Assembly: GCA_963377175.1 (NCBI GenBank)
Contig: CAUJNA010001891.1
Span: forward strand, 62,001 to 126,000
Reading direction: 5' to 3'
From: Effrenium voratum
Taxonomy: Eukaryota; Sar; Dinophyceae; Suessiales; Symbiodiniaceae
DNA: 64,000 nt
The translations under genes were made by a program, and so were the position numbers. Below the pieces are notes generated by a model. It ran no database searches. It was not told where the DNA came from and worked only from the letters and a program-made list of their open reading frames with translations. Position 1 is the first letter of the stretch. Each line of letters begins with the position of its first letter. Positions 35,945 to 59,137 of the stretch are shown here, in pieces.

Positions 35945-36329
35945 TGTGATTAGCCATGTCTTAAACCATCACCAGGGATGTCGCGATAGTGACTGACCGG
36001 TGGTGTTTGGCTCAAGTTTGACGGGTTCCGTCGCGCCTCGAATGGGCGTCGCCGAACCCCTGCGTCGACCGACGGCATCTCGGGGGAGAAAGAGACCTCG
36101 GGCCGCCGCCAGGTTGGTAGGGACCAGTCGTGCGGCCTGTTGTCGACCAAGGTTGCGGGTTAACCCTTTTCTCTTTTGGTTTGTTTCCCTTTTGGTTGTT
36201 GTTCTCTGGTGTGTGGGAAACCCTGATCTTTGGGACCGGGGATTGGTTTGCTTTTGGGGAACCTTTCTTTTGTGGCTTGTTTACCCCAACTTACCCATTG
36301 CCTGGGCACAGGCTCGTGCCCGAATCACA
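35945..36329 (+). repeat. element C 5' LTR (385 bp)
   Basis: Starts TGTGATTAGCC and ends CGAATCACA, giving a 7-bp terminal inverted repeat. Carries a leader-like piece (36006-36016) and one GTCGC-GATA-GTGAC stem-loop at 35980-35993. Confidence 0.95.
36006..36016 (+). promoter_or_regulatory. spliced-leader-like relic in element C 5' LTR
   Basis: TTTGGCTCAAG equals the last 11 bases of the dinoflagellate leader. The bases before it, CCGGTGGTG, keep the leader's initial CCG at almost the right distance. Confidence 0.65.
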
Positions 36330-36340
36330 GGTTATCAGCC
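36330..36340 (+). other. candidate primer binding site of element C (internal tRNA type)
   Basis: GGTTATCAGCC directly abuts the 5' LTR. Its complement, GGCTGATAACC, has the form of a tRNA anticodon loop and differs by one base from the initiator-Met anticodon region used by Drosophila copia. It is unlike the TGG-type site of elements A and B. Confidence 0.5.
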
Positions 36341-36383
36341 GTAGGACTTTCCTACGCGCTTGAGACTATCAACTACAAGTTCA

Positions 36384-37235
36384 ATGACGTCGACCCCACG
36401 ATCTCGGAGGAGCGTCGTGGATGAGGAGGCCATCCTAGGCGGCCTTTGCTCAGGTGAGGACCTACCGGACTTCGACTACGAGGATTTCGAAGCAGGTTCG
36501 ACAGGTCAGGACCGCAGGGGTGAAGATCCCTGTAGGGACACACCCAGAAGCCGTGGCAGGTACACCGATGATGGAGACGATCGCATTTTCCGTCAGGCCA
36601 CTGATGATGAGCAAGCGCAAAGAGCTCGCCCCGATAGGAGCGGCTCTGAATCAGGTCTCAGGCACGGACAGTTCGACTTCATCAGCATGGCGATGAACAT
36701 GGCCCGCCCCCATTCGGACGACCCGGAGGCCATGCCGACCCGACCGCCAAGATCTCTTGTTCCAGGTGAATCGCAGGTCTCGGATGAGCTCGGGGACAGG
36801 CCGCGAGGACCAGGAACCATGGTTCTGGCTCCGAGAGATATCTCGGGTCGGTCAACCAGTTCTCAAAATCCAGGTCAGTTTGATGAGCATGAGGAGAGGA
36901 AATTCACAGGCTTCGGATACGATGATCTGTTGAGATCAACCGCAGGCTGGGGTGGTAGCGCAAAGCAGGAGTCTGATGCCGATAGGCCCAACCCTGTGGC
37001 TGCCAAGTTTGAGTTTGACAATGGTGAAGATTACAATTTTGCGGATGAGGAGGAGGACCAGTCACGCCGAAATGCAAGGAGCCGTGCTGCTGCAAGGCCC
37101 AGGAGCCTCTCTCGTGGAGCCGCTAGGGACCTTCGTGTTGACAGGGACGCCCGGAGCGAGAGAGAGAGAGAGACAGGGATAGCCGGGAAGTTCTTCGGGG
37201 ATTGGAGGCCATCCATGACCGGGAGGGACCGATAG
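36384..37235 (+). CDS. element C first ORF, acidic and Arg-rich, unknown
   Basis: About 283 codons from the first ATG, 55 nt inside the LTR. The product is low complexity: Asp/Glu/Arg/Ser-rich with RSRAAARPRSLSRGAARD near the end and a GA-repeat coding for RERE. It overlaps the next frame by 34 nt in the -1 register. Reading the next frame upstream gives a smooth continuation (RDRDSREVLRGLEA), so the two are probably one Gag-like protein split by an indel in or near the GA run, or joined by -1 recoding. No enzyme motif. Confidence 0.6.
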   Translation: MTSTPRSRRSVVDEEAILGGLCSGEDLPDFDYEDFEAGSTGQDRRGEDPCRDTPRSRGRYTDDGDDRIFRQATDDEQAQRARPDRSGSESGLRHGQFDFISMAMNMARPHSDDPEAMPTRPPRSLVPGESQVSDELGDRPRGPGTMVLAPRDISGRSTSSQNPGQFDEHEERKFTGFGYDDLLRSTAGWGGSAKQESDADRPNPVAAKFEFDNGEDYNFADEEEDQSRRNARSRAAARPRSLSRGAARDLRVDRDARSERERETGIAGKFFGDWRPSMTGRDR

Positions 37236-39538
37236 GTCCTCCGGTGGTTGATAATACCCCGAATGTTCCCCCTTTTCCCAACATTGCATTTGGAGGTCCG
37301 TTGCGTCAGAGAGACGAGAACTTCGGTTCGCCGAGGATCACTGAACGGGCTGCCGATGTCGTTGGGACGGGTGCAAGAGATGGTCGGCTCGCCGATGCAC
37401 TCGGAATCGAGGATCGTCCGTCGATCGCTAGCCCGTTAGGGCGAGATCACAGTGACCTCGAAACGCTAAGGTCTAGCAACGAGTTCACACCTCAATGGGG
37501 ATCGACCGCCAGGGAACGTAGTGCTTCTGCAAAGAGGCCGTCATTCCTGGCCATTGAGACCGATAGGTCGAAGGCGAGGAGGGCTAGCCCTTCACCGTTA
37601 GGTTCAACTCAGCAGGATGAGGAAATGTTCGATCCTGCTGATGTTCATATCCACTCTACTCCTGAGTCTCGTGCATCCAATATTGATCCCCGACCTGGCG
37701 ATAGCCGGAGAAGGGGATCTACCCCGAGTAGGCCATCCAGGATTGATGATAGTCCTGCAGGCGATTCCAGAAGATATGCTAGAGCTAGTGGGGCTCCTGA
37801 GAGGATCGAGATATCGACTCCTCCAGCCCACAGGTCCCATTCCTCCGGTGAGTCAGGTGACGCTAGGGCAAAGGAGGTGTTTGATCTGCACATCCAGGAG
37901 ATGCTCGAGAGGGGTGAGGTGTCTGGTTCAGTCGCGAAAGCGTTCCATATCTTTGCTGACCAAATCAGGTTAAATCAGCAGACGAAGGACAAGGTCAGTC
38001 GTTTGGCCACTGAGATTGCGACTCAATCTGATGCCGGTAGGATGCGAATGATAGTTCAGCGGTTTCCCGAGATTGTCCCTGACAGCAGGGCTATTGTGAG
38101 GCAAGCCATCGATGAACAGGCTGAGATTGTGGATCAGAGGATCAACTTGCTTTCCAACGAAGTTCATGAATCCGTTAAGGACAATGAAATCGCAACTAGC
38201 CAGCTTCGTCAGGTCATTCAGGAGAACCATCAGGCCATCCGCAGGAGCCATGCTGCTTCCGAGGATGAGATGCTTAAGGATTTGGAGAAGCTAGAGGGGC
38301 GGATGTTCTCGGTAGAGAAAACCGTTGGGATGAGGACGCCGACAGGTGACCTTGCAGCGAAATTGCCCGATAGGGCTGCCAGCAGTGGGGCGAACGCGAA
38401 TTTCAGGGAACTAAGCCTGAAGCTCGAGAAGATCCTTATTGAACGCGAGAGGTTTGCAAAGTGGGTCTCCGAATCTATTGGTGGTATCAATGAAGAACAA
38501 GTTAGTCTTGCTGAGCGAATATCGAGGCTGCAAAGCGGAAGGGGTTCCCAGGCGGTCGATAGACCCTCAGGGCCTGATTCCCCGCAAGACTGGCATGAAG
38601 CAATTGACGAGGTCCATCGGAAGATCCAGGATCTATCTCGCGGAGTTCAACGTCAACGTCGGGATCATGACGATGTCATTGCGAGGTTTGAGACCGTGAA
38701 GTCCCATGTTGAGCAGTACGAGGCGAGATCGGGGATTCTGAATCAAGTTCTTGATGATATCAGAAGGCAGATTCGTAATCTCCCAGCGAGTAGTGATCAA
38801 GCACGGTCCGCCGTTAGGCGTGAACTCGATTCATTTCGAAGCACGCTGGAAGGCGCAATGCGGAGAATTACCACAGTCGAGAGTAACATGCGTACTCTGA
38901 ATGGAATGAACAACAGAATCATGGCTCAGCTTTCTGATATTGAAGGTCATGTCGATGAGGCTGCTGACATAATTCAGGGTGTCCAGCAGAACCAGCAGAG
39001 CCCTCAAGGACCCAGAGAGAGGCGGAATATTGGGTACAACGCCTTTGCTGGACAGGGTCATAGGATCAGATCACCGACGCCCACTCCTGGAGAAGGAAAT
39101 GGTAGGGGTACTGGCCTTCCGACAAGGACGGGTGGGGGTGTTGGCTTGACTGACCATGCTCTGCCAACTGTGCCCGATAGGGTCGATCCTTCTCGTGCAG
39201 ACAGGCATCCCATTCATGGGAAAGGGCTGACAGCAGAAGTAGAAGAGCCCGGGGAATGCCTGACAGGTCACACTCCCCGCCAGGGCGCGCAAGGGATGGC
39301 CCCCGCGCGCGTGCAAGGGGGGACGTTTGAGTTTCCCCAAACAGGGATGTGGGTAGAAACAGGAGCCCGAGGCCTGCTGCCGTCCCCGATAGGGGATCTG
39401 AGGTCCGGAATCGGCAATCGAGGGGGGAAAGGACGATCCGCGATAGCGGGAGCATTTCTCCAAACCCAGACAGGCCGGTCCGCGATAGCGGGAGCGTCTC
39501 TCCGAACCCTAACCGTAATCCTGGAGGTGGTAGGGTAA
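37202..39538 (+). CDS. element C long coiled-coil ORF (Gag-like)
   Basis: 778 codons without a clear ATG start. Residues about 1-230 are polar and disordered. From about 37870 to 39000 there is a continuous heptad-rich helical region (KVSRLATEIATQ, ISRLQSG, LEGAMRRITTVESNMRTLNG), typical of a long coiled coil able to assemble. The C-terminal part from about 39340 loses sense, while the -1 frame becomes Arg/Ser/Pro-rich (RDSGSISPNPDRPVRDSGSV), so a frame break is likely there. Probable structural protein of the particle; this is inference from position and shape. Confidence 0.6.
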   Translation: MEAIHDREGPIGPPVVDNTPNVPPFPNIAFGGPLRQRDENFGSPRITERAADVVGTGARDGRLADALGIEDRPSIASPLGRDHSDLETLRSSNEFTPQWGSTARERSASAKRPSFLAIETDRSKARRASPSPLGSTQQDEEMFDPADVHIHSTPESRASNIDPRPGDSRRRGSTPSRPSRIDDSPAGDSRRYARASGAPERIEISTPPAHRSHSSGESGDARAKEVFDLHIQEMLERGEVSGSVAKAFHIFADQIRLNQQTKDKVSRLATEIATQSDAGRMRMIVQRFPEIVPDSRAIVRQAIDEQAEIVDQRINLLSNEVHESVKDNEIATSQLRQVIQENHQAIRRSHAASEDEMLKDLEKLEGRMFSVEKTVGMRTPTGDLAAKLPDRAASSGANANFRELSLKLEKILIERERFAKWVSESIGGINEEQVSLAERISRLQSGRGSQAVDRPSGPDSPQDWHEAIDEVHRKIQDLSRGVQRQRRDHDDVIARFETVKSHVEQYEARSGILNQVLDDIRRQIRNLPASSDQARSAVRRELDSFRSTLEGAMRRITTVESNMRTLNGMNNRIMAQLSDIEGHVDEAADIIQGVQQNQQSPQGPRERRNIGYNAFAGQGHRIRSPTPTPGEGNGRGTGLPTRTGGGVGLTDHALPTVPDRVDPSRADRHPIHGKGLTAEVEEPGECLTGHTPRQGAQGMAPARVQGGTFEFPQTGMWVETGARGLLPSPIGDLRSGIGNRGGKGRSAIAGAFLQTQTGRSAIAGASLRTLTVILEVVG

Positions 39539-39540
39539 GC

Positions 39541-39638
39541 AGGGCCCATGCCGACACCCAGAGTCCCGGCGATAGCTGGAGGACTCCTGGGAGCAGAGCT
39601 CCAGAGTCCCGGTGATAGCTGGAGGACCCCTGGGACCC
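39541..39638 (+). repeat. tandem duplication of about 43 bp with two stem-loops
   Basis: Two copies of AGAGTCCCGGYGATAGCTGG followed by AGGACYCCTGGGA. Each contains a CCGGY-GATA-GCTGG hairpin. The unit is not a multiple of three, and the second copy introduces TGATAG stops in the frame used by the first. Confidence 0.7.
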
Positions 39639-40221
39639 CATCCGATCGGCACCGGCTGCAAGAGGTACGCCAGGCACCGGCGGCCCAAGTGCGCCGAAGA
39701 TCTGTGCTCTCGACAATCCAAATGATCGTAGGCACCCCGACGCTGATGATGGAGATTGTTGCAATTGTCACTTCCTGAAGATTAAGTGTTGGGCATGTTG
39801 CAAAAATGCCCAGGAGGTCTCAATGTATCTCTGCTCGGATTGCGGGAATTCAGTATGTGAGGACCTTGAGCGATGTGCGCGATGCAATACACGGCGTGAA
39901 CGGGCTGACGCTGGACCGCCCCCTCCTCCTCCTCCCGGGAAAGGAGGTGGGCAAGGCGGACCATCCGGCCAAGGCGGAGGTGGTGGTCATGGACCTGCTC
40001 CATTTCCACCTCCAGAACCTGGACATCCTGGACCTGGACATCCAGGCGGGGGTCAAGGTCCCGCTGGACCTGGCGGCCCGAGTGGTGGGGCTCCTACCGG
40101 GGGATACCCTGGTGGAGCGCCCGCGTTCTATGGCACTCTCATGGAGCTGAGAACAATCAATGTGGTTCGAGTTTCTATGGTCCAGCCTATGGAGGTGGTG
40201 TCTACAATCGGCTGGCGTTAG
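39619..40221 (+). CDS. element C zinc-finger and Gly/Pro-rich frame
   Basis: Open from 39619 after the TGATAG stop, so the N-terminus is unknown. It encodes a Cys-rich pair of zinc-ribbon-like knots: CCNCHFLKIKCWACC and LCSDCGNSVCEDLERCARC. A Gly/Pro-rich tract follows (PPPPPPPGKGGGQGGPSG). After about 40150 the sensible Gly/Pro reading continues in the +1 frame and ends at another CTKCGVRV finger near 40379. RNA binding by Gag is the likely role. Confidence 0.55.
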   Translation: MEDPWDPIRSAPAARGTPGTGGPSAPKICALDNPNDRRHPDADDGDCCNCHFLKIKCWACCKNAQEVSMYLCSDCGNSVCEDLERCARCNTRRERADAGPPPPPPPGKGGGQGGPSGQGGGGGHGPAPFPPPEPGHPGPGHPGGGQGPAGPGGPSGGAPTGGYPGGAPAFYGTLMELRTINVVRVSMVQPMEVVSTIGWR

Positions 40222-40386
40222 TCAGCCCAACGTTGCTCCAGGGTACCCTGCAAGCATCGGGCATGCCAGTAATCCTGGAGCGGGTCCATGCCACGGCTAC
40301 AGTGTTAATGGTGCCGGTGGGCCAGGGGATGGCGGTCTTCTTCCTGAAGCAATCAGAGGAGACGATGGGCGAGACAAGTGCACTAA

Positions 40387-42012
40387 GTGTGGCGTCAGGG
40401 TCCCCATTACCGGCCCTCCTCTTGTCCCGTGCGTTGGTTCGGGATGAGGGCTTGCGATGTGTGCTGTCCGTTTCCGGCTAGGCTGTGTGAGAGCTGCAGG
40501 ATCACGTCGTGTACCCCGATAGGGGCCCTGATTTCGACTGTTGCTGACAAGGATCGATACCATCACAAGTGCAACACTATCACGTTGCCTCCTGAACCTA
40601 CAGCTGATAAGCTTCGGGAATGGATTTCCGAGGTAAAGGAGAGGGTCAGGAACGCTTTCAGCTTCGACTCTGATTACGCGTTAGCGTGGATTTCAGAGAC
40701 TGAAAGACTCGACTATGACGCTCTTGGAGGGCCCTGTAGGTACCCGGTGTTGGATTCCAACTTCACGAGTGCTATCAGGGATTGCATCAAGACGAGGGCC
40801 GTTAGGGATAAGATGAATCGCCTGACGGAAGCTGCCCAGAACATGACCCCTCCTCGGGGCATCAAGGGGAGGCAGATCTTGAAGCTCCTGCTGAACCATC
40901 TGCAGACTGGAGTCGAAGACGACCAGACCTTCAAGATCGCTGAGTTGACCAGTCTCAAGTGTCGACAGACAGGTCACTCTGATGATGAGGCTAGGCTCCG
41001 GAGTTATCGGAGCACCTGGGACAATCTCATCTACGGGATCAAGAGAACGATCGATGATGGGGTACTGCTAGCTGTGTTCATCGAGAACGTTCGTCATCTA
41101 CGCTGTATGCGGCCTGACATCGAAAGATGGGATCGCGATGAGACTGTTAGGTCATTTCCGTGGCTCTATAAAGCTTGTCAGGACTGTGTCGAGCGATGGC
41201 AGAAGCGCCAGAACACGCTTCAGATGTACCAGACCTTTCATGAGCAGAGATCCCGATCGGGCTCCCACTCTCGTGAGAGGGATCGACACCCTGGAGCTCC
41301 TGGGGTTGTCCGAAGATATGACCCACTCGCGAGGAAAAGCGACCCAAGTCCTTCAAGGTCCGTTAGGTCCGACCAGATGGGAAGCCGAGGTCATCTTCGC
41401 CCGGTAGGAGCAGTCAAAGAGACAGAGCTTCTCCTGGGAGAGGCAGTCAGAGGGACAAGCGCACCCCGTCTCCCAAGTCGCCGAGAAGACAGTCGCTTGC
41501 TGGGCCTGCTGATCGGGCCTGCTGGGAGTATACGAAGACTGGGAGGTGCCAGTATGGTCGGGAATGCAAGTTCGAGCATGACAACCTCTACTCCGAGGAC
41601 TGGTGATAGGCCCGTTAGGGACAAGCCTATATACTTCGGATATTGCTACGACTGGATGTATGGCAAGTGCACGACTGCCGGCCCTGTTGAGGATGAAGAG
41701 GGGGATACCCCTAGGTCACCTACGCCCAGTCCTCCCGATAGGGAGGTGAGGCGTCTCGACAGCCCCTCAAGGATTGACGGATTTTTAGGTGGGGCGGGCC
41801 GTAACCCTCAGCCAACCATCTTGTTGCGTGTCCAGTTATGTGGGCTGTTGCCCCAGCTACCGGTGGGTCTGCGCCGGGTTGTCTCCCTCTTTGCGTTAGC
41901 AGTTGGGAGAAAAATGAGCGCAACGCGTTGTTCTTCTCCGGCACCACAGGTGGAGGTCCAAAATGGGACCAAGTCATTTGGAGAAGGACCGTTGACGCAA
42001 ATGGGACCGTGA
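40387..42012 (+). CDS. element C Gag core
   Basis: 541 codons, meaningful from about 40447. A treble of Cys pairs (ACDVCCPFPARLCESC) is followed by a helical Gag-like domain from about 40570 to 41230 (LREWISEVKERVRNAF, AIRDCIKTRAVRDKMNRLTE, RSYRSTWDNLIYGIKRT). It then becomes Arg/Ser-rich. From about 41367 the better reading is the -1 frame, which ends in a CCCH finger (separate entry); from about 41610 this frame makes sense again (PIYFGYCYDWMYGKC, a second incomplete finger). The last 50 codons overlap the protease frame and are shadow. Confidence 0.65.
   Translation: MWRQGPHYRPSSCPVRWFGMRACDVCCPFPARLCESCRITSCTPIGALISTVADKDRYHHKCNTITLPPEPTADKLREWISEVKERVRNAFSFDSDYALAWISETERLDYDALGGPCRYPVLDSNFTSAIRDCIKTRAVRDKMNRLTEAAQNMTPPRGIKGRQILKLLLNHLQTGVEDDQTFKIAELTSLKCRQTGHSDDEARLRSYRSTWDNLIYGIKRTIDDGVLLAVFIENVRHLRCMRPDIERWDRDETVRSFPWLYKACQDCVERWQKRQNTLQMYQTFHEQRSRSGSHSRERDRHPGAPGVVRRYDPLARKSDPSPSRSVRSDQMGSRGHLRPVGAVKETELLLGEAVRGTSAPRLPSRREDSRLLGLLIGPAGSIRRLGGASMVGNASSSMTTSTPRTGDRPVRDKPIYFGYCYDWMYGKCTTAGPVEDEEGDTPRSPTPSPPDREVRRLDSPSRIDGFLGGAGRNPQPTILLRVQLCGLLPQLPVGLRRVVSLFALAVGRKMSATRCSSPAPQVEVQNGTKSFGEGPLTQMGP
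41367..41609 (+). pseudogene. element C RS-rich and CCCH zinc-finger segment in the -1 frame
   Basis: Reading from about 41367 in the frame of the later pol gives RSSSPGRSSQRDRASPGRGS, then SPKSPRR, then ACWEYTKTGRCQYGRECKFE followed by His-Asp. This is a perfect C-X8-C-X5-C-X3-H finger, a class that binds RNA. It stops at TGATAG inside a GATA stem-loop. Because it is out of register with the Gag core on both sides, it marks two frame breaks. Confidence 0.65.
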
Positions 42013-45000
42013 TCGAGGATGTCGGGGTGAACTTCGGTGATCGCCGAGCGACCTTGTTCAAGAGGCTCCCAAAACGAACTGATACCAAGACGACGTTTTG
42101 GTACTGCGATGATGCGGAGGTTGTGCTGTCCTGGAGTCCCGATAGGGAACCTCTGAGGGTCAAGATCCCTGATCTCCCTGATGTGTTTGTTGTTTCAATT
42201 GAAAGTGACAACACGGGCAGGGTCCTGCATCGCTGCAGAGAGGCTGGATACGGCCATCCTAATGCGATCAAGTTCCCATCTCGCAAGAAAATTGCTAGGG
42301 AGGTTCAAAGTGCTCTGATAAGAGCGGCGGCTGTTCATGCCCAAGTGCTCTTAGACAATGATAAGGACATCGACACCAACCCTGGCGATGTGCGGGGACA
42401 TCGTGTTGTTCGAAAGCCGAAGTACACTCAAAAGGTTGCTGCACCTGTTGGATACAGCGGGGTGAGATGGCTGGTAGATACTGGTTGTCCGATGGATCTG
42501 GTCGGTCTTGGTGATCTGAAGGGATCCGATAGGGCCCTGATCGCCAAAGGCGGACACACTCACGCGCTGCACACTGCTAACAGGGCGACTCGCACCGCTG
42601 GTCGTGTTGATGCTGACGTCGGCAACCTGGGCGAGGTGATTGAGGCACACGTCCTTGAGTCCACTCCATCCATCATTTCCGTTGGAAAGCGCTGTATGGA
42701 CATGGGGTACTCGTTTGTATGGACTGCAGGTTGCAAGCCTACTCTCACGTGTCCTTCGGGTCGCACGGTGACATTGGATGTCATCAACAACGTGCCATAT
42801 CTTCCTCATGGTGACACTCAGTTCGTCTCTCCCACTCTTGATGATGCTGAACCACTTCCTGCTATGCCTGCCCCTGGCGCGGCATATCAAGGGCTTGAAG
42901 CCAGCGAGGTTCCGCCGTGCAAATCTACACCAACGGTCAAGAGTGAATTAAGGGACACCTGGCGTACGGAGCGATCAGGTCATGTTGTGAAGGAGCACCG
43001 GCCTCCGCGCAGGGCGAAGTTCGTGCCGACTGGTGATGATTGTCCCGTTAGGATCGATCAACTGGACAACTACAGGAAAACAATCGTCCACCGAAATGGG
43101 GTTACCCATGAGGTGTTGGTTGATGGTCTGTGGGAGTTGTCCGAAAGAGATCAGCATGCGATAGCATCTGATGTCCCTTGGACGGGTGAGACATGGTTCC
43201 AGGTCAAATGCGAGACCGTTGCTCTTCCCGGAGAGGCCGGGCAGGGGGGTGAGGGCGATAGCCGTTCACTTCCGGTTCCTGGCCCGGGGGAGGGAGACGA
43301 TGGCGACATTGTTGAGATAAACTTTCTCTCCGGGCTACGCACAGAAGCCGAGTGGCGTGCAGATGCTAAGACGCTCCGCCATATGCTCACGCATCTCCCG
43401 AAGAACCCCTATTGTTCACACTGTCAGCGCGCAAAAATGGAGAATGTCAAGCTTCGCCGCAAAGGTGGTGCTGCTGCGCATGACGTGGTAAGCTTCGGGG
43501 ATCTAACCACAGCTGACACAATGGTGTTGAGAGGACTGAAGGATCGAGGCTTTCATGGCGAAGCAGACGCGATAGTGTTCTATGACCTCGCTACTGACTA
43601 CCTCGAAGTCCTTCCTGTGCAATCCAGATCCCGTAGCAATACGCTGGAGGCATTTCGCAGGTTTGCAGGGGGGCAAACTCTGAAGTTAGTGTACAGCGAC
43701 CAGGCCCCAGAGCTGAAGAATGCTGTCACTACGCTTGGAGCATTGCACCGGCTTTCTACGCCGGGCATGCCCAAGACAAACGGCCTCATCGAGAATAAGG
43801 TCAAGCTTGTTCTCCATGGGGCACGTGTGCTCCTGCGTCAAGCTGGATTTGAACCTCGATGGTGGCCATTTGCCGTTAGGCATTTCTCTATGGCAAGAAA
43901 TATTGAGAACCGAGGCGACGGATCACCTTGGATGCGACGCCACGGTGACGGGAACTTCAGCGGAGTCATTCTGCCGTTTGGTTGTCTGGTCGACTTCTAC
44001 CCCATTGCTCCTAAAATTCGCAGGGATAGAAAGGGGGGGGTTCAAAACGCCCAAAACGACTTCAGACACGCTGGAAAAATTGACTCAGAGGACGTTGATG
44101 AAGGAGGAGACCACTGGATCGCAAATGAAGACGAGAAGGTTCTCACTCGCGTCCACGTTGAAGCGCGAACCGAGCTGTTTATCCCGATAGGGGCAAACTG
44201 TCCAGTCAAGATTAAAGACCTTGGCAGGAGGCGAAGCACAGTCCTTAACTATCTTGACGGATCGACCGAATTCGTTGTTGACGAGAACTGGCTTCAGGCC
44301 GAAAACGACCGTGGAGGTAACCACGAGTGGACTGGAGAAACTCATTTCGACTGTGACTTTGATCAGATCGATGAGGATGAAGCCGAGATGTATGAGAACG
44401 AGGAATACGAACCCGAGTGCAATGACGAACCGGACTTTGTCCCCACTGATGAGGTAGAGGTTGAAGAGACGAGTGTCACTACTGCCCTGCCCGCCGAGAA
44501 GAAAGAGCGGGACTTCATCAAAATTGAGGAAGATCCAAAGTTCGCCCCATCATCCAAGCCAGGCCTATTTCTGGGCTACCGGTTAGAACCAGGGGGGCTA
44601 TGGAAGGGCGACTATCTCGTCGCTGGCCTCGAGCACATCCAAAGAGGCCTCAGGAAACCAAGTATACACCAGGTCAAGCGTATCTGGAAGAACCCTGAGG
44701 AGCCCTACGTGTTCCCGATGTTGGCATCCTATGATGCTAGGACTCGGACCATTCGGGAGGCGTTAGCTGACCGAAGGGCCGACCTTAAGCCGAGTAAGAA
44801 GATCAGGGATGAATCGACTTTGATTCGATTTGATGATCCTGATGATGATGATGACGATGACCAACAGGACGAGGGGGGCGGTAGCTCTTCCAAGTCCGAT
44901 GGGGCCATTCAGAGCAAGGCTGTCCAAGGAGGTGGTGACGCATGCGTCTCAGATTACTGGGAGCGGCACGACGAGGACAGCGCCTGGTATCGCATCCACG

Positions 45001-49384: not shown

Positions 49385-49679
49385 CATTTGCTTGATCAAG
49401 CTGGCTCACACGCGGGCAACCGCACCACATTCACAGGCAGCTCAATGCGCTGACAGACCAGAATGAAAGCATGAGGCAGATATGCCTGTCACTAAGGTTT
49501 TTCTTCTGCTTCGTGAAGGGCAGATTCAGTCAATTTCTCAATCTTTGAGGTTTTAGTTCTAGGGAGAGGGTCTCTGGCCGATAGGCTGAGCCTTCTGAGA
49601 GACAGGGGAATTCTGGCCGGTAGGCTGGGTTCCCGGTTCATCCGTGGTTCTGTGGCCGGTGGCCCGAACCTGCTGACGC
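49385..49679 (+). other. element C pol to post-pol spacer
   Basis: About 295 bp without a long frame. Two related stem-loops, GGCC-GATA-GGCT (49576-49587) and GGCC-GGTA-GGCT (about 49615-49626), stand near the start of the next ORF. Confidence 0.5.
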
Positions 49680-51016: not shown

Positions 51017-51117
51017 AGGGCGTCAAGAGAGGGGCCCAGCGGGTATTCCCGAACGCGAGGTTTGCGATCCGTGGAATCTGCGTCAAGCTCGAGAAGCCTG
51101 CGGCGGACTCACAGTAT

Positions 51118-53391
51118 GTGGAGCTGTGCAACTCAGGGGGCGATAGCACCCTGCAGTATTATAACCCATTCATTGAATGGAACCCGCATGCTCCTTCAGT
51201 CGTGTGGGCTATGCACAAGTTCTTCCCTGAGAACTACATGGGACCGATAGGTCTATCAGTCGAAGAGGAGAACATGCGTGCTGCTCCGGGGACACCCCAG
51301 GCTGCCGAGGCGGAAGGTGGTGCACTCTTCGCTAGGATCGTGCCGAAGTCGAACATGCATGAGGCAATCCGAGGTGAGACGTTCGAGATCACCCTAACGA
51401 AGGGATACTTCACCGAGGCCAAGGAGGAGGCAAAGGCCGTCGGGCGGGGAGCGCTCAGCCCGAGAGAGCTCGAGTGTTTTGAGCAAGCGAGAAAGATGAT
51501 GCGCCTTATCAGGAACAAGAAGGTTGTTCCATCGTCCGTGGAGCTGCCAAGGGGAGGATACTCCCGTGTGGCGGTTGATTCTGTACAGTTGGAAAGGCAG
51601 TGGGACGCATGGGCAACAGCCGTGTTACCGGATGTGATGCTTTCCATCTACCCCTCCATCGTGCTAAACGAGATGAGTCACTGCCAAGACAAGATGGTAA
51701 TCTTGCTTCGGTGCCTAGCGGCCAGTGGGACGGGCGCTGCGGTAAGGATCGCTGCGGCCATGTCGGCCGGGTACGGCCCTCCAGTGTACAAGGAGGAGTC
51801 CGCGGCTCCGGATGCGACCGTGTTCTACCTGCTGGATCAGACGTTCAACACTGCATCCCAGAAGAACAAGAGAGGGATGGACCCTGCAACATTGGTGGAG
51901 AATATCCTCACGTGCAGGACGAAGAACGATAGGTGGAGGGCTTCCCCGGATAACCGACCGTTCAAGAACTACGAGGTGCATTACGTGACCAGTGCTCGTG
52001 ATAACGAGGAGACATCCCTTCGGATGATGATCGACAAGGCATACGAGTTGATGGACAAGCGGACGGAGGAGTGCGTCCAGAAATACGGAAACGCGGAAGC
52101 CGCGAAGTCCGACCTGTATGTCTTTGGCATCCGCGGCTCCTACCTGTATAGGTGGGAGAGGAACGCATGGAGGGCGAGAAGCGATGCGGCCACCGTGTGG
52201 AGTAAGGACGTAGAGTCGCTGATCGCGCTCAACAACAAGATGAAGGTGATGGTTTGCGGCCCGGGGCGATCGTTAGATCGAGAGGGCGACCAAGGGGTTC
52301 ACATGCAGAAGGAGATCCAGTTTAAGATGAGCGATATCCGCATGAATCTGATCCCGGTGGTTTCAGCAGACGCTGTGTCGTGGGGAAGTGAAGTTGACAA
52401 CTACGGCAGGAATCGGCCAGTCCAGAGGGCATGGATTGTGGTGCCGGCCTATCTTGCGGCTGTCCCGGACCTCTTCTCCTTGGCTAGGACTACATGGCCT
52501 GGCGCTATCACGTTGTTCATCAGGGACAACGTCTTCAAGCATCTGAAGGAGGGTACTTCTTCGAAGATGGGTGATGGCGGCTCGATGTCCGAATCTGAGG
52601 ATGTCGACATGACGGGTGCTGCCCAGAAAGGACCGCCGATAGGCGTTACTCCTGGTGGGCAATCATCTGACGCAGGTCAACGTGCTGAAGGTCATACCGC
52701 TGCCCCGAAAGCTCCTCCTAAGGCGTTAGTCACGAAGGAGATGTTGGCATCGGTGAGACCAAAGTCTCCGCCGAACCCACCTCGGAGTCCGAGGGTCTCT
52801 TCATCTCAGGTCACTGCGGCCGAAGTTGGAAATCGATGGTCATCGTGTCTTCGGACGCCCAGAGCAACGATCGAGGAAGAGAACACGGGTGGCCCTACTG
52901 AGGTCGACGATCTCCTGCCCGATAGGGAAGGGATCAATCTCCCTACGGATACCTTCCATGATGGTGAAGGCCCAACCGAGGCCGAGCAACAAGAGTTCGC
53001 CGGGGACGTTGAGATGGTGCCGGAGAGGGAGGCCGAGGTTCCCGCTGAAGGTGAGGGAGAGGCTCCCGATAGGGAGGCTGAGGTACCTCAGGCCGCTGCA
53101 GTCACGACTGAACCCTCCGTGGAATCGTCTGCAGCAAAGCGAGCAGTGTCGCCCGTTAGGGAAGGCGTAGGGATCAGGACCCAGTTCACACCCAGAAGAA
53201 GGATGAGACGCCGGGTCCGGCTGGCCCAGGTGTGCCGATCTCCTACGCCCCCAAGTACACGGACGACGACGGGGATTTGCGGGATACCGCAGCGACTCCG
53301 AAGGCGGCTTCGACCCAGGAGTCTCGAGGGGGCATACACAATTATGCGAACACGCCCTACCCGGAGCACCCGGGAGAAGCGCCCGAGCTAA
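51118..53391 (+). CDS. element C large post-pol ORF, unknown
   Basis: 757 codons from a GTG/ATG-poor start; the same frame is open back to 51004. It follows the ART-like segment without a gap and probably belongs to the same polypeptide. Residues 1-500 look globular (LYVFGIRGSYLYRWERNAWR, AWIVVPAYLAAVPDLF). The C-terminal 250 residues are acidic and Pro/Glu-rich (EREAEVPAEGEGEAPDREAE). No family recognised. It overlaps the next frame by 160 nt in the -1 register, and the Pro/Glu tail most likely crosses there. Confidence 0.6.
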   Translation: MELCNSGGDSTLQYYNPFIEWNPHAPSVVWAMHKFFPENYMGPIGLSVEEENMRAAPGTPQAAEAEGGALFARIVPKSNMHEAIRGETFEITLTKGYFTEAKEEAKAVGRGALSPRELECFEQARKMMRLIRNKKVVPSSVELPRGGYSRVAVDSVQLERQWDAWATAVLPDVMLSIYPSIVLNEMSHCQDKMVILLRCLAASGTGAAVRIAAAMSAGYGPPVYKEESAAPDATVFYLLDQTFNTASQKNKRGMDPATLVENILTCRTKNDRWRASPDNRPFKNYEVHYVTSARDNEETSLRMMIDKAYELMDKRTEECVQKYGNAEAAKSDLYVFGIRGSYLYRWERNAWRARSDAATVWSKDVESLIALNNKMKVMVCGPGRSLDREGDQGVHMQKEIQFKMSDIRMNLIPVVSADAVSWGSEVDNYGRNRPVQRAWIVVPAYLAAVPDLFSLARTTWPGAITLFIRDNVFKHLKEGTSSKMGDGGSMSESEDVDMTGAAQKGPPIGVTPGGQSSDAGQRAEGHTAAPKAPPKALVTKEMLASVRPKSPPNPPRSPRVSSSQVTAAEVGNRWSSCLRTPRATIEEENTGGPTEVDDLLPDREGINLPTDTFHDGEGPTEAEQQEFAGDVEMVPEREAEVPAEGEGEAPDREAEVPQAAAVTTEPSVESSAAKRAVSPVREGVGIRTQFTPRRRMRRRVRLAQVCRSPTPPSTRTTTGICGIPQRLRRRLRPRSLEGAYTIMRTRPTRSTREKRPS

Positions 53392-56054
53392 AAGCTGCGG
53401 AGGTTCGGCACCATCGTGAGCATGATTCCTACCTTTCATCAAGGGGGTCGCGGACTTCGGCGAGACCGGCAGAGAGCAGGTCGAATAGAAGGTTCATTGT
53501 CCAGCATGTCCTGGCAAGGGAGGCTGGTGAGCCTTTCATATATGCCGTGATCCGGAACAAGGCGATTACTCGGGAGCGGGTTACCGCCGAGGAGTGGAGG
53601 AAGGCCAGCGAGACTGCCCATATCGTGTTTCCTAATCGCGAAAGCGAGTGGAACGACGTGTTGGAGCGGGCTGTGCACAACGACTACATGTATGGGGCTC
53701 TGGATGCTTCCCGAGCCGCTGGGAGGATTGATCAAGAGTACATCAACCCTCGAGACCGGAAGTCTACGCCTTGGCCTGATCAGCAGTGGAACATGAAGAA
53801 GGTGGCGACTGAGGCTGCCCATATCCCGTTAGGGATGAGGCAGGACATTCAGGCGAAGTACCATCATGGACGAGCAACGCGGGATGATTACATGGTTCGT
53901 GGTGTCGTTAGTGACCCGAACCGCAGGGCATATGACTGTCTCCGAGCGCCAGGAGTGAGGGCAACCTTGCTGAACGCGCAGACAGGTCAATGCATTCCTT
54001 TGGATGATCCGACATGGGTGCCGGAGATAGCATCATCACATCTGCTGGTGGGGACGATCACAACGATCGCATCGCATGTGGACTGCGCCCTTGGGCGCGC
54101 ATGGCGTATGCCTATGTTCCACCCTCAGCTGATGGCGGCGACGGCGATGCTGGAGAAGTTGCAGAAGTACTTCAACGCGCTGAACGAAGCGGTACTAGGC
54201 AAGCGGTTGGGTACTGCGCCTTTCAGCATGATAGCCGGTCACCTTGCTCCGGAGTTGCGGACTATCCCGACGAGGGAACAGATGCCTGACACGCTGGCGC
54301 AATCAGCAGCTGAAATCATGCTGTCCCATGTGTCGGCGTTGTCTCACTCAGGATCAACATCCGATAGGAAGGAGATCCTCGGTAGGGATGGCAATCCGTT
54401 CGGAAAGTCATGGTTTGAAGATGAACCTGATGGGGCCACTTGGCCTGGACACCACATGGCTGGGGGTGTCGCCATTCCTCTGAAGCCGAAGACGAAGATC
54501 GTATGGGGAAAGCGACCGCATGTGGATGACGAGGGTGAGGTGGACCCGGGAGCGAGCTCTTCAGGGCAACCGAGGACTGAGCCGGCCCCTGATAGGGGTG
54601 CCGGGTCAGGAAAGGACGATGATGTGACACTTCCTGACATTGGGAAACTTTCCGTGACGGAGAAGAAGAAAGACGACATGGAGGTGGATCAGGAGGGCTC
54701 CAAGAAGGATCCCGCTGGAGCGGGCGAGCCCAAGCCTCGGGGTACTGAGGCTGGGGAGGCAGACCTGAGCGAGATTACCAACTTCAAAGGCGCTACCTTT
54801 GAGGAGTACCGCAAGACTGCTCCAGACTATGTGTACAGCGGGGAGGGAGATGATCAACGGATCCTTCCCAAGAACATTCCGATCGACATGGAGAAGTCGT
54901 TGCCTGCCGAGGCAGCGCTCTTGATCCCCAGGGCTGTGGCCACGCAAGCGGAGGCTGAGGAGGCCGAGAGAGCCACGATGGAGGCCATCCGCGGAGACTT
55001 TAGGCTTCCTGACGTTGGTCAGGAGGACAGGGAGAAGGTCGACCCCCACACGGTGACGAGTGAGGACTTGACTGCGTCGATAGACGCGTTGACAAAGAGG
55101 CTGAGTGACATGCCTGGATGGTCGGGCAACTTGCTTGACCCTGCAAAGTCTGCTGAACTGGTTGCGGCAAGATGGGGCGGGAAGGCGAGCTATGACAAGC
55201 CTGAAGCTCCTCTTACTGAGGCCGGGATGAAGAGTGCGACACCGGAGGATCGAGCTTATGCCCTATCGCAGCTGAATGAGATGGTGAATTTCCACAAGAA
55301 GCACCTATGCTCTGGGCGAGGAGCGCCAATGGTCAGCGCGACTGCTCCCAGCGGGCCGTTTGCGCCCGATCAGGTTGACGCAAGCAGGAAGTTCCGTCCG
55401 AGCGAAGCGGCAAGCAAGATGACATACAACCTCGTGATCATGGACGGAAAGAAGGACTATCTCGCCGATAGGCAGGAGGTCAGTCCAAATCTGCGGGCTA
55501 CTGGGGTTGTGCCTGATGAGGCTGTCACTTGTCAGATCGTGGTCCCAGCGAAGACAAGGTTGAGCGAGTACGTTCCGAACTACGAGGAGACCGCGGCCAC
55601 CGTCGCAGGACGGGAGGCGGCTCAAGAGTTGATGAAGCTGCTCTCGTGCGACTTTGAAGGATTGGTCATCAACTCGAAAAGAGTCTCGGAGTTATTCGAG
55701 GAAAAGGTGCTGAAGGAAACTGGACGAGAGGCTGGAAACTGGGTGAGCAGTGACCAGGCCATCTGGTTCCTGAGAGAGGTCACGGGCATGGAGAACGCCG
55801 AGATGTCGTGGCAGTTCTTTTTTCCGACGATCAAAGCTTTCCCGATAGGGCAAGTTGAGACAATGCTCATGATCATGTATGATGGAGATGGTGTCCTCCT
55901 CAGGGAGTGCACTAGGTTAGTGGCCGTTAGGTACACGCGAATCGGACGAGACATGAGTTTCAGTGCCGTTAGGCAAAGATATACTCAAGAGGATGCACCT
56001 GCCGGGTCTCTGATGTACGAGATGAACTCCCTATGGTGGGGTATGTCATCATGA
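53232..56054 (+). CDS. element C large post-pol ORF, unknown
   Basis: 940 codons. A globular N-terminal half (VQHVLAREAGEPFIYAVIRN, VDCALGRAWRMPMFHPQLMA) is followed by a charged linker around 54480-54960 (MEVDQEGSKKDPAGAGEPKP) and a second globular part (MTYNLVIMDGKKDYLADRQE, VSSDQAIWFLREVTGMENAE). No catalytic motif that I can name. It contains about 15 GDTA stem-loops in different registers. Ends overlapping the start of the next frame by 22 nt. Confidence 0.6.
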   Translation: MPISYAPKYTDDDGDLRDTAATPKAASTQESRGGIHNYANTPYPEHPGEAPELKAAEVRHHREHDSYLSSRGSRTSARPAESRSNRRFIVQHVLAREAGEPFIYAVIRNKAITRERVTAEEWRKASETAHIVFPNRESEWNDVLERAVHNDYMYGALDASRAAGRIDQEYINPRDRKSTPWPDQQWNMKKVATEAAHIPLGMRQDIQAKYHHGRATRDDYMVRGVVSDPNRRAYDCLRAPGVRATLLNAQTGQCIPLDDPTWVPEIASSHLLVGTITTIASHVDCALGRAWRMPMFHPQLMAATAMLEKLQKYFNALNEAVLGKRLGTAPFSMIAGHLAPELRTIPTREQMPDTLAQSAAEIMLSHVSALSHSGSTSDRKEILGRDGNPFGKSWFEDEPDGATWPGHHMAGGVAIPLKPKTKIVWGKRPHVDDEGEVDPGASSSGQPRTEPAPDRGAGSGKDDDVTLPDIGKLSVTEKKKDDMEVDQEGSKKDPAGAGEPKPRGTEAGEADLSEITNFKGATFEEYRKTAPDYVYSGEGDDQRILPKNIPIDMEKSLPAEAALLIPRAVATQAEAEEAERATMEAIRGDFRLPDVGQEDREKVDPHTVTSEDLTASIDALTKRLSDMPGWSGNLLDPAKSAELVAARWGGKASYDKPEAPLTEAGMKSATPEDRAYALSQLNEMVNFHKKHLCSGRGAPMVSATAPSGPFAPDQVDASRKFRPSEAASKMTYNLVIMDGKKDYLADRQEVSPNLRATGVVPDEAVTCQIVVPAKTRLSEYVPNYEETAATVAGREAAQELMKLLSCDFEGLVINSKRVSELFEEKVLKETGREAGNWVSSDQAIWFLREVTGMENAEMSWQFFFPTIKAFPIGQVETMLMIMYDGDGVLLRECTRLVAVRYTRIGRDMSFSAVRQRYTQEDAPAGSLMYEMNSLWWGMSS

Positions 56055-56440
56055 AGTTCTTGGACTTCAGGAAGGCAGTCCAGCTCCAAAAGGTGAGGCG
56101 GAACGGAAAAGCCTTGATCGAGATATTGATCACGAGGCCCGATATGTACGAGACCATTGGGGATGGAAGGCTGGATGAAGGCCTGGTTCCAATTGTGGAA
56201 ACTATGACGCCGAACGCCGAGGTATCGCCATCGTGGTACGTCAGGGACAGGCTGCGGAACTACGCAGGTAGGTACGTGGTGGTCATAGTGGACCTTCGGG
56301 TACATTGGTCACTGGTTGGACCTGTGTTTCTGACAAGGAGAAAGATCCTTGCTGTTCGGAACGAGATCCACATGGGTGCGTGGAAGGCTGCGTACATGTT
56401 CGATGATTACACGATAGTGTATCATCGGGCACTATGGTGA
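56033..56440 (+). CDS. element C small post-pol ORF, unknown
   Basis: 135 codons from an ATG that overlaps the previous stop in the -1 register. Compact alpha/beta-looking sequence (YVVVIVDLRVHWSLVGPVFL). It could be an independent gene using stop-start overlap or the tail of the previous protein. No family recognised. Confidence 0.5.
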   Translation: MVGYVIMKFLDFRKAVQLQKVRRNGKALIEILITRPDMYETIGDGRLDEGLVPIVETMTPNAEVSPSWYVRDRLRNYAGRYVVVIVDLRVHWSLVGPVFLTRRKILAVRNEIHMGAWKAAYMFDDYTIVYHRALW

Positions 56441-56489
56441 CCTCACTCCCGATAGGGGGGAGCACAAGCGGTCGCGTGAAGAAGTCAGG

Positions 56490-57263
56490 TTGAATGTGAC
56501 CACCACCTTCTGTTTGAGGTGCGCAGAAATGACGCCAAATAGGATGCATTTATGCCCTGGGTGTGCGCTTCCGGTGTTCTACCCAAACTTCATCCCCAAC
56601 GCGGACGAAGATGACTTCGAGAGGTGCGGCATCATCCCGGACTGGGTGAAGAGTATGAGACAGTTCAAGCCCAAGAGGATCCCAACCAAAGTGGTCGGGG
56701 TTATCAAGAGGAATTTAATTTCCTATTCGATGGCGTCTGACCTGAGGATGACGGTGCAGAGCGGCATAAGACTGCCACCCTATCTTGGTGAGGACAAGGG
56801 AGGAGTCGATGCGGCGTGGGATGAACTGGCGAAGGTGCTCTTTCAGTTCTCCTATGTGTCGGGGATTTCGGCCTCAGATGCGTTCGTGGAGAAGTGGGTG
56901 GCGAAGCACCTCATCAAGACCAATCAAGTCGATAGATTTGATTCGGTCACTGAGTATTTTCGAGCGAATCCGATACATGCGGCTCAGTGGGGTAGACGTA
57001 TGACGACTTCCGTTAGGAAGTTCGCCCGTCACGACACGTACTTGTCCTTCTATATCCCGATGGTGTACGTGATTGGTGCAGCGGCGGGTCATCTGACTCC
57101 CTTGTATCCGACCCACCGGAAGGACGTGGACATCCTGGCCAGTCATGCATTGATCGCAGACCTCAGGAGGTACTTGGTCTCAGCGACAGGATACGATGAG
57201 AAGAGGAGATTGAGGGAAGGCGATCAACGCTGGGCAATCAGAGCCTCCTGCCCCATTCCGTGA
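56490..57263 (+). CDS. element C zinc-ribbon ORF, unknown
   Basis: 257 codons. Begins with a zinc-ribbon pattern CLRCAEMTPNRMHLCPGC (C-X2-C-X11-C-X2-C), followed by a helical domain (VGVIKRNLISYSMASDLRMT, AWDELAKVLFQFSYVSGISA). Nucleic-acid or protein binding is plausible. It is separated from the previous ORF by a CTCCC-GATA-GGGGG stem-loop. Confidence 0.55.
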   Translation: MNVTTTFCLRCAEMTPNRMHLCPGCALPVFYPNFIPNADEDDFERCGIIPDWVKSMRQFKPKRIPTKVVGVIKRNLISYSMASDLRMTVQSGIRLPPYLGEDKGGVDAAWDELAKVLFQFSYVSGISASDAFVEKWVAKHLIKTNQVDRFDSVTEYFRANPIHAAQWGRRMTTSVRKFARHDTYLSFYIPMVYVIGAAAGHLTPLYPTHRKDVDILASHALIADLRRYLVSATGYDEKRRLREGDQRWAIRASCPIP

Positions 57264-57304
57264 CCCATTCGTCTACGTTAGTGACGAGAGGGTGAGGACG
57301 GTTA

Positions 57305-58555
57305 TTGATGGTCGTCAACCGGAGCCACTGGAGGAACGTTGAAGAGCTCCAGTCGGTGCATCATGCGGCGCAGGGTCCTGGTCCTAAGCAGGAGCCGATC
57401 GTCAAGGGCGGAAAAGGGAAAGGGAAGAAAGGAGAGAAGGGCGGTAAGGGCGGTAGTCCTTCCGGCCCACCGCCAAAGTCAGGTGAAGTGCCAGAGAAAG
57501 GGTCTGGTAAGGGCGATAGTCCTTCTGTCCCACAGGCAAAAGCAAAGGCTGATACTGGGCCGGCTCCGATGGAGGTTGATGCAACTGCGGCTCAACCAAA
57601 GAAGACCTGGGTCGCGATAGCGGTCGAAGGAGCCCGGCCGAGTGCGAAGGCTAAGATGACTCCGGTCCCAAAGGCCGAGCCAAAGGGGAAGGCAGCTTCG
57701 ATTTCTGAGGCAAAGGGTGCTTCGGCCCCAAAGGCTGAGGCTAAGGAGACGAAGCAGACTGAACCGAAGGTTGAGGTCAAGAAGGAGAAGGTAGGCGGAA
57801 ATGACGCTCCTGGCGATAGCCGGGGGTTGGCCGAAGGGCAGAGGAGAGAAAGGAAATCCCGTTGGGATCCCGACGAGACTGTGAAGGAGTCGACAAAGCG
57901 GGAGGCCTCAACGAGGCCTGACGACGTCGACAGCAGGCCAGGTGCGGCGGCGAGAGAAGCTAGTGGAGATGATCTTCACTCCGCGCTTGGCAGGTCTTCG
58001 GCAAAGGACGCGGTAGCGCCTTTGACGGCCCCCAAGGCGATGGCAAAGAAGCCTGAAGGGGGCGAGATCAGGTTGCAGTCGGCGGAGCGAGCAGCTGCGA
58101 GCTCGGTGGAGGGTCACTTCCTGGTGTTGCCGGAGAGTTCGGTGGTGAACGCTTTCCTGACGATGTCACCCGATAGGGTGCTGAATAAGCAGGTCAGAGA
58201 TTTCATCAGGAATGGTGAGAATGCTTCGGCGCTGGAGGCTCTCAACCAGATAGTGTCGAACTCTCGCCTCGGGAGAGGACGTCGGGATTCAGATGTATCC
58301 CGTACTCCTTCTCGGAGGTCCGTTAGGACAGTGGACACCAGGGATTCCCGAGAATCAAGAAGGCGCAGATATCGTCCGCGGCGCGACGAAGATCGTGACC
58401 GGAGGAGGGACGATGCTCGAGATCGTCGTGATGATGAATCACGCGATCGGGAGCGAGATCGAAGGCGAGATGATCGCAGGAGATCCGAGAGAGATCGTGA
58501 TAGGGACCGTGCGCGGGGCGGACGTGACCGGAGGAGACGTGACGATAGCCGGTAG
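57305..58555 (+). CDS. element C Lys/Gly- and Arg/Asp-rich basic ORF
   Basis: 416 codons from an ATG-less start, in the -1 register relative to the zinc-ribbon ORF. It has a KGGKGKGKKGEKGGKGG tract resembling the RNA-binding tracts of element A and B Gag, a long Lys/Ala/Pro-rich linker, and a C-terminal run of alternating Arg/Asp (RDRRRDDARDRRDDESRDRE). A nucleocapsid-like RNA binder encoded at the far end of the element is the best guess. Low complexity prevents a family call. Confidence 0.55.
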   Translation: MMVVNRSHWRNVEELQSVHHAAQGPGPKQEPIVKGGKGKGKKGEKGGKGGSPSGPPPKSGEVPEKGSGKGDSPSVPQAKAKADTGPAPMEVDATAAQPKKTWVAIAVEGARPSAKAKMTPVPKAEPKGKAASISEAKGASAPKAEAKETKQTEPKVEVKKEKVGGNDAPGDSRGLAEGQRRERKSRWDPDETVKESTKREASTRPDDVDSRPGAAAREASGDDLHSALGRSSAKDAVAPLTAPKAMAKKPEGGEIRLQSAERAAASSVEGHFLVLPESSVVNAFLTMSPDRVLNKQVRDFIRNGENASALEALNQIVSNSRLGRGRRDSDVSRTPSRRSVRTVDTRDSRESRRRRYRPRRDEDRDRRRDDARDRRDDESRDRERDRRRDDRRRSERDRDRDRARGGRDRRRRDDSR

Positions 58556-59137
58556 GCTGAGTCACGAGGATTGCAGCCGGTAGGCTTGCGTCCATTCTCC
58601 AATGGTTGGCGCGGTGGGGAGGTGGTGATGTTCCTCCCGAACCGCTGAGGCGCGGAGATCGTGTCTCTCCCGTACCGCTGTTTGGCTGCTGGTCGTGCCC
58701 ACCATGAAGTTGTGTGAGTGAGAGGGGAAGCAAACTAATGGGGGGATACTCCCGGGTTTGCGAAATTCAAGTATTTTGCAGGTGCGCATGGTCAGGCGTA
58801 CCTCTTGCCGATAGGCGAGGGTAGTAATGAACATACGTTATCCTTTGTTTCATGGCTTCTGATAAGAATTGAACTACTTGCATTGTTGATGCAAACTGTT
58901 GTGGCCTAGTGCCGTCATGTGGGCTTTTCCACGAGGTATGTTGGACAGCGTTACCCCGATTAATTCGGGGTGGTGGCGGGATTTTAATGCCCGGGACGTC
59001 GCGCAACTGCCTTTGTGGGTTTGCTCCACCGCTGACGGCGGTAGTGTCCAGCTGTTTGCGGATACATGCGAGCAGTTAAATCCTATCAGTAAATGGCACG
59101 CTCCACCCGTCATATGACGGGCTCCTCGTGAGGGGGG
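58556..59137 (+). other. element C 3' untranslated region with strong hairpins
   Basis: No coding frame. It contains GGTA/GATA loops (58579, 58810), a long hairpin ACCCCGATTAATTCGGGGT (58953-58971) and a perfect 16-bp palindrome CCCGTCATATGACGGG (59106-59121) just ahead of the polypurine tract. Confidence 0.65.
59131..59137 (+). other. polypurine tract of element C
   Basis: AGGGGGG immediately before the TGTG of the 3' LTR, the expected position and composition. Confidence 0.8.

Follow-up and report, generated by a model that had tools for sequence, protein, structure and literature searches.

In bacteriophage MS2, stem-loops across the genomic RNA share a motif for the coat protein, situated in the apical loop together with a bulge (PMC6281560), and multiple dispersed packaging signals have been described for parechovirus, enterovirus E and satellite tobacco necrosis virus (PMC5431903, PMC7793301, PMC3593212). 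Hepatitis B virus has packaging stem-loops with an RGAG loop, in which the core-protein motif is situated (PMC7612645), and in retroviruses Gag selects the genomic RNA via structured cis-acting RNA, e.g. the purine loop of mouse mammary tumour virus (PMC8096270). Here, we describe an array of hairpins with a shared loop in element C, a Ty1/copia-type long terminal repeat (LTR) retrotransposon within a 64-kb stretch of the genome of the dinoflagellate Effrenium voratum (contig CAUJNA010001891.1, positions 62,001 to 126,000; hereafter the window), which also holds the elements A and B. At the level of titles and abstract beginnings, our searches of the open-access literature yielded no description of such an array in any retrotransposon and no mention of a hairpin array in dinoflagellate copia-type elements.

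A sequence-only reading of the window had proposed that GATA, GTTA and GGTA tetranucleotides (together GDTA), flanked by complementary bases, constitute a dispersed RNA recognition code on the sense strand of element C. The analysis below supports this proposal in part and widens it by way of a sister family, in which the loops are different.

A strand-specific array of GDTA hairpins

Element C (35945-59520) contains 268 GDTA tetranucleotides. Hairpins in which such a loop is closed by at least 3, 4 and 5 Watson-Crick pairs number 89, 59 and 31, respectively, on the sense strand, versus 2, 0 and 0 on the antisense strand. The ~40 kb of the window outside element C hold 4, 2 and 0 on the plus strand and 3, 0 and 0 on the minus strand, the two with at least four pairs (at 12847 and 19923) being taken as chance occurrences. 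Both the restriction to the sense strand and the absence as a class from the surroundings were correctly seen before. The earlier count of about eighty, i.e. one per ~300 bp from the LTR to the 3' end, was likewise fair: when G.U pairs are counted (at least four contiguous pairs, of which at least three Watson-Crick) there are 95 sites with a mean spacing of 247 nt, and the element itself continues to 59520. The examples quoted at the time (38813, 41737, 55079 and 57815) are all present as written.

At the RNA level, the array consists of stems of 4-5 bp that close a G-D-U-A tetraloop, at a density of about one hairpin per 250-400 nt, and it extends over all three coding regions and into the 3' untranslated part. 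The LTR contributes one hairpin that contains a G.U pair (GATA at 35985 in the 5' LTR) and that stands outside the set of 59. The 95 sites are spaced somewhat more regularly than expected at random (coefficient of variation 0.79 vs 0.98, p 0.01). Many stem-loops with variable stems and a shared loop motif are thus found along one RNA, as in dispersed packaging signals. A scan of the window against Rfam gave no match at the gathering score.

The excess over chance is large. In 500 dinucleotide shuffles of element C the mean numbers of hairpins with at least 3, 4 and 5 pairs were 2.5, 0.6 and 0.15 (maxima 10, 5 and 3). The coding part (20,313 bases) contains 76, 52 and 28 hairpins, compared to means of 5.6, 1.5 and 0.6 (maxima 11, 5 and 4) in 200 synonymous-codon shuffles. 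Moreover, the 80 coding sites in which four or more of the first five positions are paired are spread over all three codon phases (43/10/27). In the phase that places TA at the start of a codon, all 10 sites continue with C or T, by which stops are avoided. The array is indeed independent of the protein reading, as had been claimed.

The loop itself is highly specific. In a survey of all 256 tetraloops (at least three Watson-Crick pairs, 35980-59600), a stem was found around 56 of 124 GATA (expected 2.6), 22 of 65 GTTA (expected 1.4) and 11 of 78 GGTA sites (expected 1.6), whereas the next-ranking loops were weak (CCTA, 5 of 51 with 1.1 expected; GCAG, 7 of 122 with 2.6 expected) and GCTA had no stem-flanked site in element C. 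Loops of 3 and 5 nt show no comparable excess in the element, and the 6-nt loops that are in excess are chiefly the GDTA tetraloops plus their closing pair.

Conservation and selection at the level of the sense RNA

The genome (1.156 Gb, 3699 contigs) was searched for relatives, and eight further copies (loci L010-L029, 193 kb) that are 88-93% identical to element C over the aligned parts entered the conservation tests. Gapped site-copies and BLAST pieces shorter than 300 bases were dropped, and loci L001-L009 were kept outside these tests. A search of IMG/VR gave one locus, matching the dUTPase part only. The 193 kb of relatives contain 427 GDTA hairpins with at least four pairs on the strand that corresponds to the sense strand of element C and 2 on the opposite strand. 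At the 59 sites the loop G, T and A diverge by 1.7, 2.3 and 0.6%, and the four stem pairs by 0.9-4.6%, compared to 14.9% for the second loop base, 4-19% for the ten bases on either side and 10.2% overall. The loop still reads GDTA in 338 of 349 site-copies, versus 222 of 370 for GDTA without a stem, in a tally with a narrower gap filter whose cell totals differ slightly from those of the main test. The hairpin is intact in 519 of 570 site-copies, and 64 of the 95 sites are intact in every copy that covers them. In addition, the relatives carry hairpins at 29 positions where element C has none, for instance by way of one loop base or new stem bases.

The departures from perfect pairing indicate which molecule is selected. 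Among single departures in stems with four of the first five pairs Watson-Crick, there are 28 G.U, 7 A.C and 30 other combinations, the latter mostly at stem positions 4 and 5; at positions 2-3 the numbers are 16, 1 and 4. The share of G.U among G.U plus A.C expected from composition is 0.54, and the observed excess has a p of 0.0013. G.U pairs also belong to the stems, an addition to the earlier description. As a G.U pair on one strand would be an A.C mismatch on the other, this bias, together with the one-sided orientation, identifies the sense RNA as the selected molecule.

Folding points in the same direction: the hairpin is part of the minimum-energy fold of its 104-nt surroundings for 50 of 59 GDTA sites and for 33 of 111 control stems, a comparison in which the G+C fraction of the stems differs (0.73 vs 0.55). 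The difference nevertheless persists within every class of stem G+C: for one, two, three and four G/C among the four stem positions, the folded fractions are 3/3, 12/14, 21/26 and 14/16 for the GDTA hairpins and 6/20, 13/55, 10/28 and 4/8 for the controls. The synonymous shuffles, the G.U bias and the conservation footprint show a selection on RNA structure that is independent of the protein sequence. The hairpins are maintained by purifying selection, which the G.U bias places at the RNA level, and we regard it as near certain that the array is under such RNA-level selection.

A second loop code in sister family D

A sister family in the same genome, family D (P0003 type), was read in one 24-kb stretch (L030-L032; G000:C1225:328001-352000, minus strand). 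The protein P0003 is 53% identical to the polyprotein of element C over 73% of the latter, and the genome contains 25 scored matches at 95-96% identity to P0003. With at least four pairs, there are no GDTA hairpins on the sense strand of D and one on the antisense strand. Instead, its sense strand has stem-flanked GANNAA (18) and TANNCC (6) hexaloops and a TAVAM pentaloop (8), versus 0, 0 and 1 on the antisense strand and means of 0.36, 0.17 and 0.24 (maximum 3 each) in 300 shuffles. The best pattern has a z of 15.1, versus at most 5.9 in 40 shuffles. Reciprocally, element C has 0 GANNAA, 2 TANNCC and 0 TAVAM hairpins against its 59 with GDTA. In the pol frame of D, 5 GANNAA hairpins compare to a mean of 0.24 and a maximum of 3 in 200 synonymous shuffles.

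As the patterns were discovered and counted in the same stretches, the checks consist of the shuffles, the separate stretches and a 92% identical copy, L033 (locus L034, 99.75% identical to the D stretch, is not independent and was excluded). By stretch, GANNAA has a stem at 2 of 36 (L031), 8 of 70 (L030) and 8 of 45 sites (L032), and GACAAA is enriched separately in L030 (3/8) and L032 (4/6), not in L031 (0/4). For 12 D hairpins present in L033, 44 of 48 stem cells are unchanged, 3 keep and 1 breaks pairing, compared to 457 of 520 unchanged, 18 keeping and 45 breaking for 130 control stems; the loops are unchanged in 11 of 12 versus 88 of 130. Single departures in the GANNAA stems comprise 5 G.U, 0 A.C and 6 others. 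Family D thus has an array of the same design as element C, with other loops, as read in a single element, with a 92% identical copy as a check. Our guess would be that its three loop classes are one motif, K-A-V-A-M with an optional extra base.

A candidate reader and the competing explanations

We lean, though not strongly, towards the explanation that the hairpins form a recognition array specific to its family, whose reader would be encoded by the element, with Gag as the most likely protein, and which would serve to select and compact the RNA of the element. What speaks for it is the excess for GDTA only and for loops of length 4 only, the strand bias of 59 vs 0, the G.U bias, the fold and the footprint, as well as the reciprocal codes of C and D and the tandem CCCH fingers in ORF1 (open reading frame 1) of both families. 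The hairpins would act as multivalent binding sites for a Gag with a C-terminal tandem CCCH. Many sites per RNA would provide avidity, by which Gag could pick its own 23-kb RNA among the RNAs of the host and of rival retrotransposons; its binding at many places would condense that RNA into a particle, and with the splitting of families, code and reader would diverge in concert.

ORF1 is called Gag-like because of its position and a stretch that is conserved between C and D (36% identity). In a relative (L013) it is open without interruption over 1951 aa and has two CCCH zinc fingers close to its C-terminal end. Because short RNA motifs are a frequent target of CCCH domains, Gag is the first candidate reader, and ORF1 with its tandem CCCH seems more suitable for this role than ORF3 with its Lys/Gly-rich tail. 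When ORF1 and ORF3 were compared to the sequences of PHROGs and PDB, only a weak CCCH match (E 0.055) emerged, and the AlphaFold2 model of the C-terminal 512 residues of ORF1 (L013, three sequences; mean predicted local distance difference test score 43) was too poor to use.

Several observations weigh against this explanation. The CCCH matches in ORF1 of C lie below the curated Pfam cut-offs (at best zf-CCCH_4 with 23.3 bits vs 24.6; ZAP-like with 17.6 vs 27), those at the equivalent place in family D were recognised by eye only, and ORF1 gave no match to a capsid family. Family D was read in one element only, and elements A and B in the window have no clear array, i.e. the feature is not general to the copia elements here. 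The earlier statement that stem bases change together while the loop stays holds for the loop and only weakly for the stems. Changed stem cells keep pairing in 41 and break it in 15 cases, versus 163 and 313 in control stems (Fisher 2.6e-8, in a test that counts related copies many times). Counted as distinct events, the numbers are 15 and 11 versus 69 and 119 (p 0.053), and one of the controls with slid pairing (keep/break 6/6, 8/4, 10/15 and 10/21) is as high as the real pairing. Distinct G.U versus A.C events stand at 11:3, compared to 61:62 in controls (p 0.049). As distinct double changes keep pairing similarly in hairpins (4 of 5) and in controls (12 of 16), compensatory covariation as such is not proven; with p about 0.05 it is only suggestive. 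The case draws its strength from the conservation, the strandedness, the specificity of the loop and the second code, not from covariation.

The RNA-level evidence would fit any reader of the sense strand, and a host RNA-binding protein that the element exploits for export, stability or translation of its very long RNA, rather than Gag, would also suit the presence of hairpins in the 3' untranslated part and the LTR. A single host reader, however, does not predict mutually exclusive loops in two families of one genome; several would be needed, and we consider this explanation unlikely. The local stability of the hairpins (50 of 59 folded) and their even spacing could also reflect an array that functions without protein, in compaction, in pausing or assisting reverse transcription, or in RNA dimerisation by loop-loop contacts. 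Stability alone, though, requires no GDTA, to which no other tetraloop comes near, the G, U and A of the loop rank with the best-conserved positions (1.7, 2.3 and 0.6% divergence), and GAUA, GUUA and GGUA are not self-complementary, which would argue against kissing dimers; this possibility is distinctly unlikely. That the hairpins are read by the ORF3 protein, the Lys/Gly-rich candidate of the sequence-only reading, is very doubtful: it is a rare protein, with 2 of 8000 scored candidates passing E 0.001, and has a basic C-terminus, K/G-rich and then R/D/S-rich, but no known domain, and hence no recognised RNA-binding domain, was found in searches of Pfam, PHROGs and PDB sequences.

Copying can perfect inverted repeats, and a mutational artefact of this kind (template switching or gene conversion) had been named as the main alternative in the sequence-only reading. 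It is contradicted by the choice of GDTA, the single strand, the preference of G.U over A.C and the conservation footprint, all of which it leaves unexplained, and the listed positions where a relative has a hairpin and element C has none differ mostly by substitutions, not by insertion of a hairpin; we give it hardly any credence. Chance or protein sequence has a practically negligible probability: repeated tripeptides (PDR, PIG and similar) do exist, yet the synonymous shuffles reach at most 5 hairpins of at least four pairs where 52 are observed, and every codon phase is used. Palindrome artefact, chance and protein motif were accordingly rejected.

In a more far-reaching form of the Gag explanation, which we put forward tentatively and hold to be somewhat short of an even chance, the giant copia elements of one genome would each write, over the full length of their RNA, a private hairpin barcode that is read by their own diverging CCCH-type Gag, with code and reader co-evolving and only the own RNA being packaged. 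If true, coding sequence across the genome would carry an embedded RNA identity code that differs from family to family.

Structure of element C and other features of the window

The features are listed in Table 1. Element C has the LTR pair, the TG...CA ends and the short target duplication of a copia LTR element. Its LTRs (385 vs 383 bp) differ by 3 substitutions in 383 columns plus 2 gap columns, and because of this near-identity and the TATAT on both sides it looks like a young insertion. Pol contains a dUTPase (E 3.6e-31), and RVT_2 matches the frame-broken pol weakly (E 4.3e-5, 23.7 bits vs a cut-off of 31.6). The pol relatives P0004-P0006 carry PF07727, and 4 of 15 protein relatives of pol are named Symbiodinium sp. 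CCMP2592. Elsewhere in the genome, 7 of the 84 scored matches have pol as a single open frame of 2566 aa, and the longest frame reaches 3353. By eye, the stretch 45510-45716 of pol resembles a DNA cytosine methyltransferase (IPCGPWSTWQ), for which no Pfam match was obtained.

Table 1. Coordinates of element C, its hairpins and the LTRs of element B in the window
Feature	Position	Strand	Remarks
Element C, Ty1/copia-type LTR retrotransposon	35945..59520	+	LTR pair, TATAT both sides, dUTPase, weak RVT_2 match
5' LTR of element C	35945..36329	+	termini TGTGATTAG...CGAATCACA; GATA hairpin at 35985; TTTGGCTCAAG box at 36006
3' LTR of element C	59138..59520	+	GATA hairpin at 59178; TTTGGCTCAAG at 59199
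ORF1 (Gag-like) region	36345..42012	+	frame-broken here: open 36345-37235, 37142-39538, 40387-42012
pol	41805..49384	+	DTG as in aspartic proteases (by eye, 42468), dUTPase, RT (reverse transcriptase); two frames in element C
ORF3 region, 3' of pol	49677..58555	+	uninterrupted in relative L017 (2293 aa); without Pfam match
59-hairpin array (GDTA loop, at least 4 Watson-Crick pairs)	36837..58864	+	loop starts in the next four rows
Array loop starts 1	36837 37231 37435 37562 37810 38311 38369 38558 38813 39388 39442 39484 40518 40606 40680		
Array loop starts 2	41704 41737 42141 42317 43101 43160 43875 45327 45440 46060 46361 46709 47529 47618 48110		
Array loop starts 3	48769 48915 48956 49070 49316 49479 49804 50567 50840 51246 51557 51696 51770 52000 52272		
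Array loop starts 4	52638 53068 53283 53580 53828 55079 55968 56413 57012 58172 58322 58551 58579 58861		
Example hairpin CCTCCC-GATA-GGGAGG	41731..41746	+	
Example hairpin GCGTC-GATA-GACGC	55074..55087	+	
Longest perfect stem	46353..46372	+	8 Watson-Crick pairs around GATA
LTRs of element B	12406-12680, 25114-25370		

The box TTTGGCTCAAG, which we take to be like the 3' part of the dinoflagellate spliced leader, occurs in both LTRs of element C and of element B (12443 and 25151 in the latter) and in the 5' part of family D (position 1977 of the joined stretch). Its role may be to define where transcripts start or to imitate trans-spliced ends.

In element A the best loop pattern (z 5.0) falls within the shuffles (maximum 5.9). 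In element B a TCCG tetraloop has a stem at 6 of 88 sites versus 0.59 expected (12648, 14838, 16371, 17122, 22104 and 25338), and 4 of the 6 read CCC-TCCG-GGG; no array is claimed, as one hairpin, present in both LTRs, accounts for two of the six and the z of 5.9 is barely above that of 40 shuffles (maximum 5.3). Element B also has a match to RNA 2'-phosphotransferase (Tpt1/KptA) at 20832-23009 (E 3.5e-4, below the cut-off), and the protein P0019, part of which is 98% identical to the ORF3 of family C, shows similarity by eye to this stretch. At 62933-63922, dense GGTTGG/GGGT simple repeats overlap a minus-strand open frame (62933-63832).

Comparison with known systems

In RNA viruses, dispersed packaging signals have degenerate motifs, which makes it difficult to establish them from sequence. 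The motif of element C, by comparison, is strict, it is repeated ~60-95 times in one RNA, it is strand-specific and its footprint is visible in relatives, while the sister family D amounts to a natural swap experiment. The elements thereby offer a clean system for studying the recognition and folding of a long RNA by its own structural proteins, and the way in which selfish elements that share a nucleus avoid packaging each other's RNA.

Like the RNAs of the single-stranded RNA viruses, the RNA of element C has many dispersed stem-loops with a shared motif. Unlike these viruses, element C is an LTR retrotransposon with a putative recognition array, its motif is strict enough to emerge from one sequence without selection experiments, and its sister family has different loops. 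With hepatitis B virus, element C has in common that it is reverse-transcribing and that its stem-loops carry a loop motif, although the class of element and the motif differ and the function in C is putative. Retroviral packaging signals sit mainly near the 5' end, whereas the array of element C covers ~22 kb of the RNA, including its coding regions.

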